Assembly: GCA_030158485.1 (NCBI GenBank) | Contig: JAOASS010000009.1 | Span: 1 to 64,000, forward strand | DNA from: Pseudobdellovibrionaceae bacterium | Lineage (GTDB): Bacteria > Bdellovibrionota > Bdellovibrionia > Bdellovibrionales > Bdellovibrionaceae | Direction of reading: 5' to 3' | Length of the DNA stretch: 64,000 nt | Shown here: positions 42,323-58,966 of the stretch, piece after piece | Numbering within the stretch: position 1 is the stretch's first letter | Layout: every line of letters starts with the position of its first letter | The notes under the pieces: generated by a model | Databases searched by the model: none | What the model was told of the DNA's origin: nothing | Seen by the model: the letters and a program-made list of their open reading frames with translations, nothing else | Made by a program: the position numbers and the translations under genes

Positions 42323-43134
42323 AGTCGGGATACGATCAGTTTTTTAAAAGTGCTCGCAAAGCGGCTGATGGCAAGCCTGCTTCTATTAAAAGTTCTAAGC
42401 CCGTTCAGCAAAAGTCTCAATCTCATCAGAAGAAAAGAAAAGTTTCAGCTAAGTTTCCTTTAATTTCATTTATTATTTCAGTGATGGGTTTTTGTATTGC
42501 TTACGCTGGTTTTGAAAACTATGAAAAAATAAGTGTTCTTTTGGGTAAAGTTGAATTTTCATTTTTTTCACCTGCCTATGCTTCTGAAGCTACAAAATCT
42601 GATGTTGTACCTGCGACTTCAGCTTCAGAGGTGTCAACTTTTACGAAGCCTGTCGTAGCAGAACCAACAGGTGAAGAATTGAATCATCTGATGAAGCTTG
42701 CAGATCGAAAAAAAGAACTTGATGCTCGTGAAGAAGAGCTCAATCGTATGGAAACTGAAATGTCTAAGCAAAAGGAAGAACTTCAAAAGCAAGTATCTGA
42801 TTTAGAAAAAATGAGAAACTCAATTTCTTCAATCTTGGAAGAGCGTGTAAAGGGTGATGATCAGAAAATTGAAACTCTTGTTCAGTTTTATTCAAATATG
42901 AAACCACCTCAAGCTGCTAAGATATTTGAAACACTTGATGAAGATTTAGGTGTTCAAATATTAGGCCGAATGAAAAAGAAAAGTGCAGCTGAAATCTTAA
43001 ATTTAATGAAAGCGGATAAAGCTCAAATGTTCACAGAAAAATTTGCAGGCTATAAACGAACAGTTGCTTCGGAAGAAGCTGGTGAAAATAATCAGCCAGT
43101 CAACGATGCGACTCAAGCACCTACTAAACCATAA
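42319..43134 (+). CDS. MotE-like flagellar protein with MgtE-N/FliG-like domain
   Basis: Basic N-terminal tail, one transmembrane helix (PLISFIISVMGFCIAYAGF, about residues 48-66), a long coiled coil (about 115-185) and a C-terminal domain of about 60 residues (VQFYSNMKPPQAAKIFETLDEDLGVQILGRMKKKSAAEIL) resembling MgtE-N/MotE domains. In other bacteria MotE acts as a periplasmic chaperone for stator protein MotC; whether this one binds a stator is unknown. Overlaps fliJ by four bases; fliK follows. Confidence 0.82.
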   Translation: MKSGYDQFFKSARKAADGKPASIKSSKPVQQKSQSHQKKRKVSAKFPLISFIISVMGFCIAYAGFENYEKISVLLGKVEFSFFSPAYASEATKSDVVPATSASEVSTFTKPVVAEPTGEELNHLMKLADRKKELDAREEELNRMETEMSKQKEELQKQVSDLEKMRNSISSILEERVKGDDQKIETLVQFYSNMKPPQAAKIFETLDEDLGVQILGRMKKKSAAEILNLMKADKAQMFTEKFAGYKRTVASEEAGENNQPVNDATQAPTKP

Positions 43135-43140
43135 GTAGGT
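43119..43140 (+). repeat. Hairpin across the motE-like stop codon
   Basis: ACCTACT (43119-43125) and AGTAGGT (43134-43140) are perfectly complementary with an 8-base loop; the stop codon ends at 43134. It sits at the junction to fliK and ends a few bases before the fliK ribosome site GGGAGG. No T-run follows. Confidence 0.5.
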
Positions 43141-43152
43141 AAGGGAGGAACT

Positions 43153-44925
43153 TTGTTATCAGGACTCGTAAAAAATACGGGTCCAACACTCAACGTACCG
43201 GTGCCGGATTCCAAGGATAGGAATTCAGAGACACAAGGGAAGAACTTTAGCGATGTGCTTGATTCTAAATCAGAACGAGCGACAAAAAAAGAAGACATCG
43301 TCAAAGGGCAACCCGACAAAGCTCAGACCCAAAATAATTCTGTTAGATCTCAAAAGACAGAAAATAAGGGAAGAGTGGAAAGTCAGGAAGACTCTGAAAA
43401 CCAAACTGAAAGTCCCCCGGATCCTAAAGTGATGGATCCGAGAACAAGTGCCACGAGAGAACAGAGAGATCGAGCGATCCGAAAATTCATGGACTCATTC
43501 GAGAGTGAATTCGGAATACCACCAGAAGAGATGGTGGAAGCGATGTCTCAACTCACAGCACAAGATCTCGACAAGCCACCCGAAAAAACGGTGGATACAC
43601 TTATTGCAAATCTTGATCTTGATTCTCAAGATGAAGCTGAAGCAAAAAAAATGTATATGGGTTTAGTCGTCGAATTGAAGCAAATTGATACTCGTGTGGC
43701 TTTACCAAGGGCTCACGATGACATGCTCAGTCAGCTCTCGGCCCAGCGTTTTCAATTGTCTGCAGATAAGAAAGAAATGATCGGTTCCCAAGTTCAAGGC
43801 TTAAGTGACAAGTTTTGGATGAGGGGTGCGCAAGCTGAAAAAACAATGACTCCAGAAGTGAATCAACTTCAAGTGCGTGAGTTCTTGAATAAAATGATCA
43901 CAGCTGAATCTGCAGGTATTGAACTTGATCAAGCTGAAGCCGTTTCACCTGAAATGATGTCATCGACTGAAAATTTATTAAAACAGTTGAAGTCAGAAAA
44001 ATTAAATGAATTCTCGAAGGAGGATTCATCAGATTTGTCTCTTGAGGGTGAAACATCATTTATGGCGGAATCGTCTGGGATGAAAGCTTTGACTCAGAAT
44101 TTGAAGTCTCAAGGATCAAACGCTGACAATCAGCAGGACCAGGAGCAAGCAAATTTAGGTCAGGAAGTACCGTTATCGAAACCAGCGATTAGTCAAGAAG
44201 CCGTTCAGGCAGAATTCAAAAGGCTTGGAATCAAGCCAATTGAACAAATGCAGACTAAGAAATTAGTTAAAGCGGATGTCGAAGCTATGCTCAGTCTAGA
44301 CGCGGGTTCGATGTCTCAAGTTAAAATTGATACATCAAATTCGATCTTACCTACCCTTAGTTTGCAACCGACTGTGGATCTATCACCAGTTCAGAAAACC
44401 GAAAATATTCAGCAGATTATGAACCAAGCTCAAATTCTTCTGAAGGATGGTGGAGGCGAAGTCAAAGTTGAAATGACTCCGGAAGGTATGGGTTCAATCC
44501 AGATGAAACTTCGGGTATTGGACGGTAAAGTTCAACTTCAGATGAACACAGAAACGAAGGAAGCTAAAAAAATGATTGAGTCTTCTATGAATGACTTAAA
44601 ACAATCATTAGCAGCTCACCAACTTTCTATGGATCTAGTGAAGGTGGATGTGGTGCACCAAGCGTCTTCATCCCAAAATACTCAAAATGATCTGCAAAAT
44701 CAGATGCAAAATTTTATGAACCATCAACAGCGTGATGGAACCAAACAATTTTGGCAGCAGTTCAATGAAAATTTTGGAAATCGACAAGCGCGCGAGGCAT
44801 TTATCGATGCTCAAAACATTAAATCGCCGGTTAAGAACCAGACCTTACCCGGATTTGATGCGACATCATCCAATAGTCGAGCTCGAACCGATGGGCGAGG
44901 CAAAAGTTTAAATCTCGTGGCATAG
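43153..44925 (+). CDS. fliK: Flagellar hook-length control protein FliK
   Basis: TTG start after GGGAGGA. The first ~400 residues are low-complexity, charged and glutamine/serine-rich, as in FliK molecular rulers. The C-terminal Flg_hook domain is clear: GGGEVKVEMTPEGMGSIQMKLRVLDGKVQLQMNTETKEAKKMIE, then LKQSLAAHQLSMDLVKVDV. 590 residues is long for FliK (about 400 is common), which may relate to hook length. flgD follows. Confidence 0.88.
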   Translation: MLSGLVKNTGPTLNVPVPDSKDRNSETQGKNFSDVLDSKSERATKKEDIVKGQPDKAQTQNNSVRSQKTENKGRVESQEDSENQTESPPDPKVMDPRTSATREQRDRAIRKFMDSFESEFGIPPEEMVEAMSQLTAQDLDKPPEKTVDTLIANLDLDSQDEAEAKKMYMGLVVELKQIDTRVALPRAHDDMLSQLSAQRFQLSADKKEMIGSQVQGLSDKFWMRGAQAEKTMTPEVNQLQVREFLNKMITAESAGIELDQAEAVSPEMMSSTENLLKQLKSEKLNEFSKEDSSDLSLEGETSFMAESSGMKALTQNLKSQGSNADNQQDQEQANLGQEVPLSKPAISQEAVQAEFKRLGIKPIEQMQTKKLVKADVEAMLSLDAGSMSQVKIDTSNSILPTLSLQPTVDLSPVQKTENIQQIMNQAQILLKDGGGEVKVEMTPEGMGSIQMKLRVLDGKVQLQMNTETKEAKKMIESSMNDLKQSLAAHQLSMDLVKVDVVHQASSSQNTQNDLQNQMQNFMNHQQRDGTKQFWQQFNENFGNRQAREAFIDAQNIKSPVKNQTLPGFDATSSNSRARTDGRGKSLNLVA

Positions 44926-44979: not shown

Positions 44980-46005
44980 ATGGGAGTCGTGAACGTTGGC
45001 CGATCAACAAATACCTTTGGAAAAACCGAAGCGCCTCTTGAATCAACAAACCCTTCTTCTTCTAATTTATCAGTTGAAGAGCTTAAAAAATTAGGCGGCG
45101 AAAATGTTGGCGAGGTTCTTAATAAAATTGCAGATCCAAATTGGGTCGATCCTTCTAAAAAGTTGCGGACTGTGGGTAGTGATAAACTCGACAAAGACGC
45201 TTTTTTTAAATTGATGCTGACTCAATTAAAAAATCAAGATCCTTCTAGTCCACTGAAATCACATGAAATGGCCGCGCAGTTAGCCAATTTTTCGAGTCTT
45301 GAACAAATGAATAACATGAATCAAACTTTAACTGATTTGAAAAATGGGCAAAAGCCTATGGAGCAATTTCAAGCTCTGAACTTTATTGGAAAAGCAGTGG
45401 GAGGTGACAGTTCTAAAATTACACGAGCTAAAGGTGATAAAGAACATGATTTCCGATTTAGTCTAACAAATCCAGCAGCCAAAGTTGTAATTCGTATTCG
45501 AAATAATGATACAGGTGAAAATATTCGTACAGTCGATTTGCAAAAATTAAAAGAAGGTGACAACAAATTTGTATGGAATGGTCAGAATGAAAAAGGTCAG
45601 CCAGCTCCAGTCGGAAATTATCAGATGTTCGCGGAAGCCTTTAATGATGCAGGAAATAAGCAAATGATCAAAACAGATTTTGAAGGTGTCATCACCGGAG
45701 TAAATTATACAGCAGAAGGACCCGTACTAATGGTAGGGAATCAGTCGGTGAAGTTGAAAGATATTAAGAAAATCCAAGACCCAAGCCTTATGAAGAACGA
45801 CCAGAAAGTGAATTCTGTAGTCGAGTCCAACTTGAAAACAGCAGTTGCTTCAAACGAAACTGATAACAAGCAAAGTGCAACGGAAACTTCGACTTCTCTA
45901 GAAGGCGCTCCAGATGCTCCACTCAAGTTGCAACAGAACATGATGGAGAATGTTGGAATGTCGAGTGGAATGAAGGATAGACTCGCAAAGGAGATTCAAG
46001 AATAA
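44980..46005 (+). CDS. flgD: Flagellar hook cap / hook assembly protein FlgD
   Basis: Scaffolds hook assembly. Conserved segment FFKLMLTQLKNQDPSSPLKSHEMAAQLANFSSLEQMNNMNQTL, then a FlgD Ig-like region (VIRIRNNDTGENIRTVDLQKLKEGDNKFVWNGQNEKGQPAPVGNYQMFAEA). 341 residues, longer than the usual 220-240, with an extra C-terminal tail of about 80 residues. Starts with GGAGG upstream; its stop overlaps the next start by one base. Confidence 0.93.
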   Translation: MGVVNVGRSTNTFGKTEAPLESTNPSSSNLSVEELKKLGGENVGEVLNKIADPNWVDPSKKLRTVGSDKLDKDAFFKLMLTQLKNQDPSSPLKSHEMAAQLANFSSLEQMNNMNQTLTDLKNGQKPMEQFQALNFIGKAVGGDSSKITRAKGDKEHDFRFSLTNPAAKVVIRIRNNDTGENIRTVDLQKLKEGDNKFVWNGQNEKGQPAPVGNYQMFAEAFNDAGNKQMIKTDFEGVITGVNYTAEGPVLMVGNQSVKLKDIKKIQDPSLMKNDQKVNSVVESNLKTAVASNETDNKQSATETSTSLEGAPDAPLKLQQNMMENVGMSSGMKDRLAKEIQE

Positions 46006-46439
46006 TGGATTTGAAACGTCTACAAGGTTTTGAAAATCTTGTACCAGCACAAAGCGGAATCGGTGGTTTACAAAAACCATCATCGAGTGACGTGACTCGC
46101 GGTCCATCATTCAAAGAAGCTTTAAATGATGTGATGGCACCGAAGCCAGGTTTATCGAACCCGGCTTTGAAGACGAATTCGATCGAAGGTTTAAAATTTT
46201 CTAACCACGCTATTGATAGAATGCAGTCTCGTGGTATTCGATTCACACCTGAAGATATGACTCGTTTGAACGACGCGGTTAATCGTGCAGCTTCTAAAGG
46301 ATCCAAAGATTCTTTGATCCTCATGAAAGATTCTGCGCTTATCGTCAGTGTGAAGAATAAAACTGTTGTAACGGTAATGGATAAGACAGCTCTTAAAGAA
46401 AATGTCTTTACCAATATCGATTCAACTATTGTAATGTAA
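46005..46439 (+). CDS. Flagellar operon protein of the TIGR02530 type
   Basis: 144 residues with the conserved core LKFSNHAIDRMQSRGIRFTPEDMTRLNDAVNRAASKGSKDSLILMKDSALIVSVKNKTVVTVMD, which matches the small protein often found between flgD and flgE in flagellar operons. Function not established; possibly hook-assembly regulation. The one-base overlap with flgD supports co-translation. Confidence 0.83.
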   Translation: MDLKRLQGFENLVPAQSGIGGLQKPSSSDVTRGPSFKEALNDVMAPKPGLSNPALKTNSIEGLKFSNHAIDRMQSRGIRFTPEDMTRLNDAVNRAASKGSKDSLILMKDSALIVSVKNKTVVTVMDKTALKENVFTNIDSTIVM

Positions 46440-46487
46440 TTTTTTTTAATGAAAGAGGCATTGGGTCTCTTGATTTAAGATTTTAAC

Positions 46488-46575
46488 AGGGCCGGTCCTC
46501 CTAGAGGGGGCCCTCCAAAACAGACAACATGAATGTTGTCTAATATATTAGGGATAAGGTTTGGTCGCCTTATCC
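46488..46575 (+). repeat. Array of three hairpins upstream of flgE
   Basis: Hairpin 1 (46488-46514): AGGGCC and GGCCCT outer arms around a CCTC/GAGG inner stem. Hairpin 2 (46522-46541): AGACAACAT, GA, ATGTTGTCT, perfect. Hairpin 3 (46552-46575): GGATAAGG, 8-base loop, CCTTATCC, perfect. None is followed by a T-run, so they are not typical terminators. Confidence 0.7.
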
Positions 46576-46578
46576 TGC

Positions 46579-46594
46579 ATGACATGGAGGTCAT
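46579..46594 (+). promoter_or_regulatory. Stem holding the flgE Shine-Dalgarno in its loop
   Basis: ATGAC (46579-46583) and GTCAT (46590-46594) form a 5-bp stem around ATGGAG, which contains most of the GGAGG ribosome site; the flgE ATG follows at 46595. It could modulate translation of the hook gene. Small stem, so it needs experimental support. Confidence 0.4.
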
Positions 46595-47878
46595 ATGGGT
46601 GTTCTTTCTTCTCTTTATACCGGCGTATCCGGTTTAACTGCACAAGGTGAAGCGTTAGGTGTTATCGGTGATAATATTGCCAACGCTAATACGATCGGCT
46701 TTAAAGCCAGTCGCGCCGAATTTCAGGATATTATTTCCAAGAGTTTAAAAGGCGTCTTAGGTGGAAATCAAATTGGACGTGGTGTGAAAATCGGAGCCGT
46801 TAATCCGATTATGGCACAGGGTAATGTTGATTCAACAGAGCGAGTAACAGACTTGGCAATTTCGGGTGATGGTTACTTCAAAGTTAAAGGAAGTGACGGC
46901 GATACTTATACTCGTGACGGTGCTTTTTACTTCGATAAAGATGGCTACCTCGTAACAAAAGATAAACAAAAAGTTCAAGGCTTTACGACTGACGAAAAGG
47001 GAATGGTCGTTAATAAAGTTGACGATATTAAATTCCCACGGGCTTTGACGCCGGCAAAAGGAACAACAGAAATTAAATTTGATTTAAATTTAGATTCTCG
47101 TGTTGATGCAAAAAAGAAATTTGATGTGAAAGATCCTTACGCAACATCTCATTATTCAACAGGTATCGAGATGTACGATTCACAAGGTAACAAGCAACTC
47201 GTGAGCATGTTCTTCAATAAAGTAGCTGACCGTGTTTGGGAATTTAAGGGAATGTGTGACGGAAAAGCTGTAACAGGTGGAGACGAAGGAAAATTGTCTC
47301 AAGTTGTTGCGGGTCGTTTAGAGTTCACAGTTGATGGTAAGTTAAAAAATCAAGAAGTGACAGAACAAGCTTTCAATTTCACAGGTGGAGCGTTGCAAGA
47401 TCAAAAGATTAAGATCAATTTTGGTGATGCGATTGATGCTGGTGGCAAAGGTCTTGATGGAACAAAACAGTATGGAAAAACATCTGATTTGATTAGTTGG
47501 AATCAAGATGGTGCAGCTGCTGGAACAATTACAGGACTTTCATTTAATGATGAAGGAATGTTAACAGCTGTTTACTCAAATGGACAAGCTCAGGACTTAG
47601 CACAAATTGCAATTGCGAAATTTGAAAATCCTGAAGCCATGTTTAAAGTTGGTAACAATAGACTTCGTGAATCAAGAGATTCAGGTGTTGCAGCGATGGG
47701 TGCTCCGAAAGCAGCAGGTCGTGGATCGATTTACGCAAAGTCACTTGAAAGATCAACAGTCGACTTAGCAACAGAGTTTGTTAACATGATTCAAAATCAG
47801 CGATCCTTCCAAGCCAATGCGAAAACAATCACCACAACCGACGAACTCCTAAACGAAGTAATCCAACTCAAAAGATAA
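46595..47878 (+). CDS. flgE: Flagellar hook protein FlgE
   Basis: Main hook subunit. N-terminal LYTGVSGLTAQGEALGVIGDNIANANTIGFKASRAEF and C-terminal LERSTVDLATEFVNMIQNQRSFQANAKTITTTDELLNEVIQLKR are the paired flagellar rod/hook helices. Middle has DLAISGDGYFKVKGSDGDTYTRDGAFYFDKDGYLVTKDKQKVQG. 427 residues, normal length. Last gene of the operon; a terminator follows. Confidence 0.95.
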   Translation: MGVLSSLYTGVSGLTAQGEALGVIGDNIANANTIGFKASRAEFQDIISKSLKGVLGGNQIGRGVKIGAVNPIMAQGNVDSTERVTDLAISGDGYFKVKGSDGDTYTRDGAFYFDKDGYLVTKDKQKVQGFTTDEKGMVVNKVDDIKFPRALTPAKGTTEIKFDLNLDSRVDAKKKFDVKDPYATSHYSTGIEMYDSQGNKQLVSMFFNKVADRVWEFKGMCDGKAVTGGDEGKLSQVVAGRLEFTVDGKLKNQEVTEQAFNFTGGALQDQKIKINFGDAIDAGGKGLDGTKQYGKTSDLISWNQDGAAAGTITGLSFNDEGMLTAVYSNGQAQDLAQIAIAKFENPEAMFKVGNNRLRESRDSGVAAMGAPKAAGRGSIYAKSLERSTVDLATEFVNMIQNQRSFQANAKTITTTDELLNEVIQLKR

Positions 47879-47942
47879 TAGGTGATAGATAAATTAGGCG
47901 TGAAGCCGCGTTAATGGAATTATCATAAACCCAAATGACCAT

Positions 47943-47978
47943 GGGGAAGCTGTTCGAGAAGCAGCTTCCCCATTTTTT
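47943..47978 (+). terminator. Intrinsic terminator of the flagellar operon
   Basis: GGGGAAGCTG (47943-47952) and CAGCTTCCCC (47962-47971) form a perfect 10-bp stem with a 9-base loop, followed by A and six T (47973-47978). Located 65 bases after the flgE stop. Confidence 0.92.
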
Positions 47979-58140: not shown

Positions 58141-58866
58141 TTATGATTTCTTATTTGAATCTTTAAAGGCGATATTCAGCTTATTGAGGGCGACGAATAA
58201 ACAAAGTCCACAAGCCATTAATATAAAACTCACCACTTGTGAGATCGAAAACCCACTTATCATTTGCCCTCGGAAATCATTTCTATAAAATTCCACTATA
58301 AATCTTCCAAAAGCACTTGTGACAATCCAAATAAGGAATAAGTTTCCACTTTTTAATTTTAATTTTTCAAGTCTTAAGAGAATTAGAAAAAGACCCGCTT
58401 CCCAAAAAAAGAGATACAGTTGGGTTGGATGCAGGCCTCGAAAGGACCAAAATGCATCTAAATTTTTTCCAAAACAGCAGCCTTGAAAAAAGCAGGCTAA
58501 CCTCCCGAATCCAGTTCCTAGACTTAAGATGGGTGTGAAAAAATCAGCGGTTTGCCAAAAAGTCCGCTCACGATATTTTTTAAAATAAAATGCGAAAAAT
58601 AAAATTGAAAAAATGAGGCCCCCAAAATAAACAAAGCCCCCTTTCCAGACTTCGAAAACTCTGAAGGGAGCTTCGGCATAATAAGAAGGAGCTTCGTAAA
58701 AAATATGTAGCAGTCTTGCACCAATTGGAATTGTAATGAGCATCCAGCCAGTGACTGAAAAAAACAGACTTTCAGGAAAACGAAAGGATCGAGCCCGCTT
58801 GAGAGAAAAAACAAAGCAGCTGGTAAAAGTCAGGCTAATCCAGAAAAAATAGATGATCGACTGCAC
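58141..58866 (-). CDS. Divergent Lgt-family diacylglyceryl transferase
   Basis: Polytopic protein with about seven helices and the Lgt motifs in order: FRVFEVWKGGFVYFGGLIF, GTGFGRLACFFQGCCFGK, LHPTQLYLFFWEAG, AFGRFIVEFYR. Compared with E. coli Lgt, the essential His103 position is Phe81 here, and the GNFINGELWG stretch reads ACFFQGCCFG. Arg122 (E. coli Arg143) and HPTQLY are kept. Starts with GTG. It may be a distant paralogue with altered function; a canonical lgt elsewhere would settle this. Confidence 0.75.
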   Translation of the reverse strand: MQSIIYFFWISLTFTSCFVFSLKRARSFRFPESLFFSVTGWMLITIPIGARLLHIFYEAPSYYAEAPFRVFEVWKGGFVYFGGLIFSILFFAFYFKKYRERTFWQTADFFTPILSLGTGFGRLACFFQGCCFGKNLDAFWSFRGLHPTQLYLFFWEAGLFLILLRLEKLKLKSGNLFLIWIVTSAFGRFIVEFYRNDFRGQMISGFSISQVVSFILMACGLCLFVALNKLNIAFKDSNKKS

Positions 58867-58966
58867 TCTTATACAGTATAATTATTTTCATTTTCTCTGA
58901 ACTCTATTGATTAATCTAGACTCTTGACGAGATGACAGTTCGGAAAGCAGTCTAGATAATGTATGC

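Follow-up and report, generated by a model that had tools for sequence, protein, structure and literature searches.

A two-hairpin RNA element ahead of flgE and flgG in genomes that encode the flagellar protein TIGR02530

The CsrA-FliW system controls the translation of flagellin: of hag in B. subtilis (PMC6529632) and of flaA in C. jejuni (PMC4894983). Two structured RNA candidates, Termite-flg (RF01729) and flg-Rhizobiales (RF01736), are named for flagellar genes (PMC2864571). As a leader RNA, the subject of the present analysis is of a known kind; as a family, its pair of hairpins (called A and B below) appears to be new. Rfam 15, with RF01729 and RF01736 included, has no match at the element in the window (the whole stretch of DNA that was analysed, 64,000 nt of a Pseudobdellovibrionaceae bacterium; E up to 5) or in 28 loci that carry the element, and a known Rfam family was accordingly rejected as its identity; two sub-threshold Rfam matches fall elsewhere in one locus (L156), off the element. 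Flagellar genes go unmentioned in the motif surveys consulted; Weinberg 2017, with its 224 candidate RNAs, was covered only through Rfam, so that prior mention is not fully excluded.

The flgE leader in the window and in its order

In the window, flgD is followed by the gene of a TIGR02530-family flagellar protein and then by flgE. The gap between the last two, 155 nt in length, holds all of the stems:

44980-46005: flgD, the first gene in the order flgD, TIGR02530 gene, flgE
46005-46439, + strand: gene of the TIGR02530-family flagellar protein (NCBIfam TIGR02530, 134.1 bits, curated cut-off 83.2, E=2.2e-39), the proposed trans-acting partner
46486-46542, + strand: two-hairpin RNA element, A+B (covariance model R2, 50.2 bits, E=3.3e-9; the window is not in the model)
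46488-46514, + strand: hairpin A, with basal stem 46488-46492/46510-46514 (AGGGC/GCCCU) and apical stem 46497-46500/46504-46507
46493-46496, + strand: 5' side of the internal loop of hairpin A, CGGU in the window and YGGA or YGGU in relatives, facing GG at 46508-46509
46513-46517, + strand: CUCCA tail of hairpin A, the complement of UGGAG of the Shine-Dalgarno (SD) loop; an alternative, SD-blocking pairing would be possible
46522-46541, + strand: hairpin B, 8 bp with a UGAA loop, shortened relative to the N-GA-NY-GA-NN-GA-N of relatives
46552-46575, + strand: third hairpin (GGATAAGG/CCTTATCC), particular to the window genome and outside the conserved element
46579-46594, + strand: SD hairpin, stem ATGAC/GTCAT and loop ATGGAG with the SD inside, the same form as the CsrA-type ANGGAN loop
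46595-47878, + strand: flgE, the hook protein gene (NCBIfam FlgE models, best E=5.9e-104), putatively controlled by the leader

The initial annotation, made from the letters of the DNA, had placed four stems in this gap (46488-46514, 46522-46541, 46552-46575 and 46579-46594), none of them with a T-run, directly before the hook gene. The stems are indeed present, both in the sequence and in the minimum-energy fold of 46440-46610 (-54.9 kcal/mol, z = -3.26; none of 200 dinucleotide shuffles matches this stability); no T-run stands behind any of them; and the neighbours are as described, FlgE downstream by its NCBIfam match and the TIGR02530 protein upstream. That the gap holds "far more" structure than the others of the window is only roughly true: by z it ranks second of the 12 window gaps of 80-400 nt (about -4.4 on the better strand), but the gap with the flgE terminator (z -4.5) and the gap at 43132-43431 (z -4.4) are similar.

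(Some features of the surroundings: the gaps at 43132-43431 (z about -4.4) and 58744-58966 (z -3.35) both fold much better than their shuffles, and the former overlaps the start of a long ORF, 43153-44925, that precedes flgD. Eight T residues, 46440-46447, come right behind the TIGR02530 stop codon; relatives are without them. Past flgE there is a strong terminator hairpin at 47941-47973, 14 bp with a T5 tail, and beyond it a convergent ABC-transporter gene.)

The general form of this leader can be made out from the regions upstream of 54 flgE genes, which come from the window and from related genomes within its order. Hairpin A is found in 50 of the 54, usually accompanied by hairpin B and mostly also by the SD hairpin. 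Its basal stem stays near AGGGC/GCCCU and its internal loop sets YGGW opposite two purines (YGGW/RR), with YGG on the 5' side in 49 of 49 leaders; its apical stem varies in length, up to dozens of bases. Five loci, from several lineages (L024, L026, L028, L038 and L048), have long extra apical arms on a hairpin A whose internal loop is fixed, and this suggests that the loop, rather than the tip, would be the part that is recognised. A model of hairpin A alone finds a single copy in the window genome (E=8.9e-11). The stem of hairpin B is variable in sequence and its loop often has three GA steps: a loose search for the GA loop finds it in 48 of 80 leaders, a few of these matches being false, versus 4 in mononucleotide shuffles. 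In the window's own hairpin B the full GA..GA..GA loop is absent (6 nt in the R2 alignment); a leader of the same genus (L003) has it in full.

Both the SD hairpin and hairpin A show compensatory change, in counts that are not to be taken as probabilities because related sequences can inflate such scores. For the SD hairpin (48 distinct rows), 81.7% of cells are paired versus 65.4% when shuffled, and 38 cells are doubly changed versus 14.2, which none of 500 shuffles equals. For hairpin A (44 distinct rows), 94.9% of cells are paired, again equalled by none of 500 shuffles, and 7 of its 9 pairs have changes on both sides; because this alignment was fitted to a model, the shuffled and slid controls outweigh the raw percentages. 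Sliding lowers the score greatly for SD hairpin and hairpin A alike. The third hairpin, in contrast to A, B and the SD hairpin, has no counterpart in most relatives, so that the set of stems first proposed is conserved only in part. The interpretation of the leader as a device of RNA-level control, or a protein-binding leader, stands, since conservation and compensatory changes among the relatives are strong, the very opposite of the finding that had been named as its refutation.

Counting only SD hairpins with stems of 4 bp or more, the loop is ATGGAG in 27 leaders and AGGAG in 9. Counterparts of these two forms were sought in the CUCCA tail of hairpin A: the matching A is present in 37 of about 41 UGGAG leaders and the matching U in 4 of 11 AGGAG leaders, counts that are no more than suggestive of an alternative pairing of the tail with the SD.

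(A contig titled as a Streptomyces griseus MAG (CALQIT020000002.1) has a flgD-TIGR02530-flgE region of the Bdellovibrio type; the title looks wrong.)

Hairpins A and B in other phyla

Loci well outside the clade came to light when an alignment of TIGR02530, the protein encoded upstream, served as query: they belong to Malonomonas and other Desulfuromonadales, Pelosinus, Propionispora, Fuchsiella, Syntrophomonadaceae and others. In nearly every one, hairpin A and hairpin B, with identical loop bases, occupy the space between TIGR02530 and flgE; an SD hairpin of the Bdellovibrio form was seen in none of these outside TIGR02530-flgE loci. The conserved unit is hairpins A and B; the SD hairpin is an addition in Bdellovibrionota.

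The covariance model of this unit, R2, was built from 22 sequences with the window left out, and matches in all 16 genomes behind the non-Bdellovibrio loci. In its alignment 96.2% of cells are paired and 64 are doubly changed, versus 16.7 when shuffled. A further set of 74 copies consists mostly of matches in the Pelosinus phylum (Bacillota) that were not used in building R2: here 96.4% of cells are paired, 290 are doubly changed versus 82.8 when shuffled, and the covariation score of 0.641 compares with 0.07-0.14 when slid. The stem of hairpin B covaries in both sets. The 74 copies also single out unpaired bases that are near-invariant: GG-A in the internal loop of hairpin A (the GG invariant, the A in 97%) and GA..GA..GA in loop B. 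Hairpins A and B have been kept through compensatory changes across several phyla.

Where does the element stand? R2 matches in 176 of 299 genomes of the Pelosinus phylum, and its strong matches there occupy two contexts, with no others seen. Among 70 loci examined, 28 are TIGR02530-flgE loci with the element just past TIGR02530, and 42 have the element before flgG. The best 30 loci comprise 26 with TIGR02530 directly upstream (in two of these the contig breaks off short of the next gene) and 4 before flgG; four more loci are divided evenly, two before flgG and two TIGR02530-flgE. Among the 150 matches listed, 78 are located -2 to 95 nt (median 3) past the listed TIGR02530 gene, and another 40 lie away from TIGR02530 though its position is known: all 40 stand before flgG, the 4 from the best loci and 36 others. 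Four of the 16 non-Bdellovibrio genomes have a second copy (L169, L171, L174 and L175) that directly precedes a FlgG-type gene, and in three of these a FlgF-type gene stands upstream; the regions around flgF and flgG of two Bdellovibrio genomes gave no R2 match. From the end of hairpin B to the start codon the median distance is 33-37 nt (45 copies with a pattern-recognised start). Two unlinked targets that share one element suggest a trans-acting reader.

(Candidates set aside, and doubtful cases: an intrinsic terminator or attenuator was rejected, since no T-run follows a stem in the window gap and only 5 of the 74 copies have a T-rich stretch after hairpin B. A kink-turn was considered for the internal loop of hairpin A and dropped, because the purines opposite GGA swap A and G freely and the bulge is of two bases instead of three. 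A weak R2 match in locus L173 (22.9 bits) lies inside a long unrelated ORF and is put down to chance. Three MAG contigs titled Bacteroidota or Bacteroidetes (L152, L157 and L159) have TIGR02530, the element and flgE; their titles are doubtful.)

The company of TIGR02530

In the 299 genomes of the Pelosinus phylum, the element is found in the 176 already mentioned and TIGR02530 in 212: both in 175, TIGR02530 only in 37, and the element only in 1, where the match is weak (E=0.048) and the genome (G455) is without a FlgE/F/G match. FlgE/F/G-type proteins occur in 253 of the 299, that is, in the 212 with TIGR02530 and in 41 without it (the lists were compared by hand); the element is present in 175 of the former and in 0 of the latter. 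Likewise in the window's order, the four flgE-bearing genomes without the leader (G041, G048, G057 and G058) are those without TIGR02530, although these may represent as few as two losses. The element is essentially confined to genomes that encode TIGR02530.

How much can be built on this? No p-value is claimed, because the genomes compared are related, and joint loss of a flgE copy and TIGR02530 is a non-independent event because the two adjoin. The unlinked flgG copies, which also are found only with TIGR02530, are better evidence; they lessen this non-independence and do not remove it. The 37 TIGR02530 genomes in which R2 finds no match make it possible that the protein has another role, or that the element has drifted. 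(One Pelosinus genome (G144, L161) has two TIGR02530 genes to one R2 match.)

TIGR02530 itself is named in no paper of the literature searched, and a search of solved structures by sequence found nothing. Its conserved C-terminal domain is predicted to be made up of two helices followed by a beta sheet (mean pLDDT 89, fair to high confidence). Foldseek ranks YafQ top for this predicted domain (E=0.33, prob 0.60, TM 0.46; not significant), other BECR-fold RNase toxins recur among its weak matches, and Pfam DUF4258 is a sub-threshold match by sequence (E=0.01). The predicted fold is, at most, weakly RNase-toxin-like. The invariant residues are H, R, R and K, which would fit contact with RNA; this is suggestive only.

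Candidate readers of the element and comparison with known systems

Translation control by a bound protein would be the simplest reading of these observations, with effects on stability or processing as the alternatives. On balance it appears probable that A and B constitute a cis-regulatory RNA common to the flgG and flgE messages, to which TIGR02530 binds to set their translation; the binding and the direction of control are both inferred. TIGR02530 would attach to the loops of hairpins A and B and, once bound, would set how frequently the flgE and flgG messages are read by ribosomes, so that distal-rod and hook subunits would be supplied to suit the stage of assembly. In Bdellovibrionota the start site would be held, in addition, in the covarying SD hairpin of CsrA-site type, which might be kept closed or helped open either by CsrA or by the protein bound at A and B. 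CsrA may add a layer of control there because the SD lies in a CsrA-type loop and because the window genome has csrA and fliW, about 350 nt apart and outside the window (G000:C9:131448-132310; L057, L058). One can go further and think of TIGR02530 as a "domesticated" protein of RNase-toxin fold that reads a two-hairpin code on flgG and flgE, an RNA checkpoint on the timing of distal rod and hook synthesis in several bacterial phyla; that picture we regard as tentative, and rather doubtful as a whole.

Need TIGR02530 touch the RNA at all? Another flagellar component or an export-state signal (for instance a chaperone, or rod or hook protein not yet assembled) might be the reader, with TIGR02530 acting in the same pathway. 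Structural proteins commonly control their own synthesis, and the targets are exactly two paralogous axial proteins. FlgE/F/G proteins alone do not track the element, however, since 41 genomes have them but lack both TIGR02530 and the element, and a reader of this kind seems unlikely. It is also conceivable that the stems shield flgE or flgG mRNA after processing and fix its level with respect to operon neighbours: stable stems at intra-operon gene junctions, a median of 3 nt from the end of TIGR02530, are what one would look for, and selective RNA processing and stabilisation has been proposed for Clostridium operons, with a flagellar operon among the predictions (PMC8219983). Yet simple stabilisation does not call for fixed unpaired bases, whereas GG-A (hairpin A) and GA..GA..GA (hairpin B) hardly vary from phylum to phylum, and the tie to TIGR02530 is left unexplained unless TIGR02530 is the processing factor; we consider this explanation improbable.

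Two conserved loops near a ribosome site, maintained over long phylogenetic range, might equally call to mind a riboswitch that senses a small-molecule motility signal such as a second messenger. Only two genes are targets, though, both of them flagellar; the element is restricted to TIGR02530 genomes; no Rfam riboswitch matches it; and we give this idea little credence. Even less can be said for CsrA (antagonised by FliW) controlling flgE alone through the SD hairpin, with A and B as accessories. The SD does lie in a covarying hairpin with a loop of the ANGGAN type, and csrA and fliW are close together in the window genome; but A and B reach far beyond the clade that has the SD hairpin, a second GGA site is not conserved, and 59 of 60 relatives have CsrA, with the leader or without it. 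On this last count CsrA was rejected as sole reader; the proposal as a whole is very improbable.

If flgE and flgG are indeed controlled through TIGR02530 bound at A and B, then flagellum assembly would have a widespread and uncatalogued RNA regulon, whose point of action is the rod-to-hook step rather than flagellin. The element would also provide a testable role for TIGR02530, an uncharacterised protein that is kept in many flagellar operons.

Comparison with known systems brings out what is shared and what is not. The proposed arrangement resembles the CsrA-FliW flagellin systems in placing control in the leader of a flagellar structural gene and, in Bdellovibrionota, in having a GGA loop over the SD together with csrA and fliW; it differs in its target, which is the hook (and the rod) instead of flagellin, and in its A+B core, which lacks a CsrA consensus and tracks TIGR02530 rather than CsrA. 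Termite-flg and flg-Rhizobiales belong to other taxa (termite gut and Rhizobiales, respectively), and in the loci scanned the element gave no match to either. The BECR-fold RNase toxins (YafQ, CdiA-NC101, HP0894) head the list of structural neighbours of the predicted TIGR02530 domain, a likeness that is not significant, and TIGR02530 has no toxin-antitoxin setting. Ribosomal protein leaders and ANTAR-target RNAs (PMC7247131, PMC8164766) differ from the element in structure, in targets and in the candidate protein, the reader here being a putative one; in manner of working they are nevertheless its parallel: one hairpin code placed before several genes, with a dedicated protein to read it.
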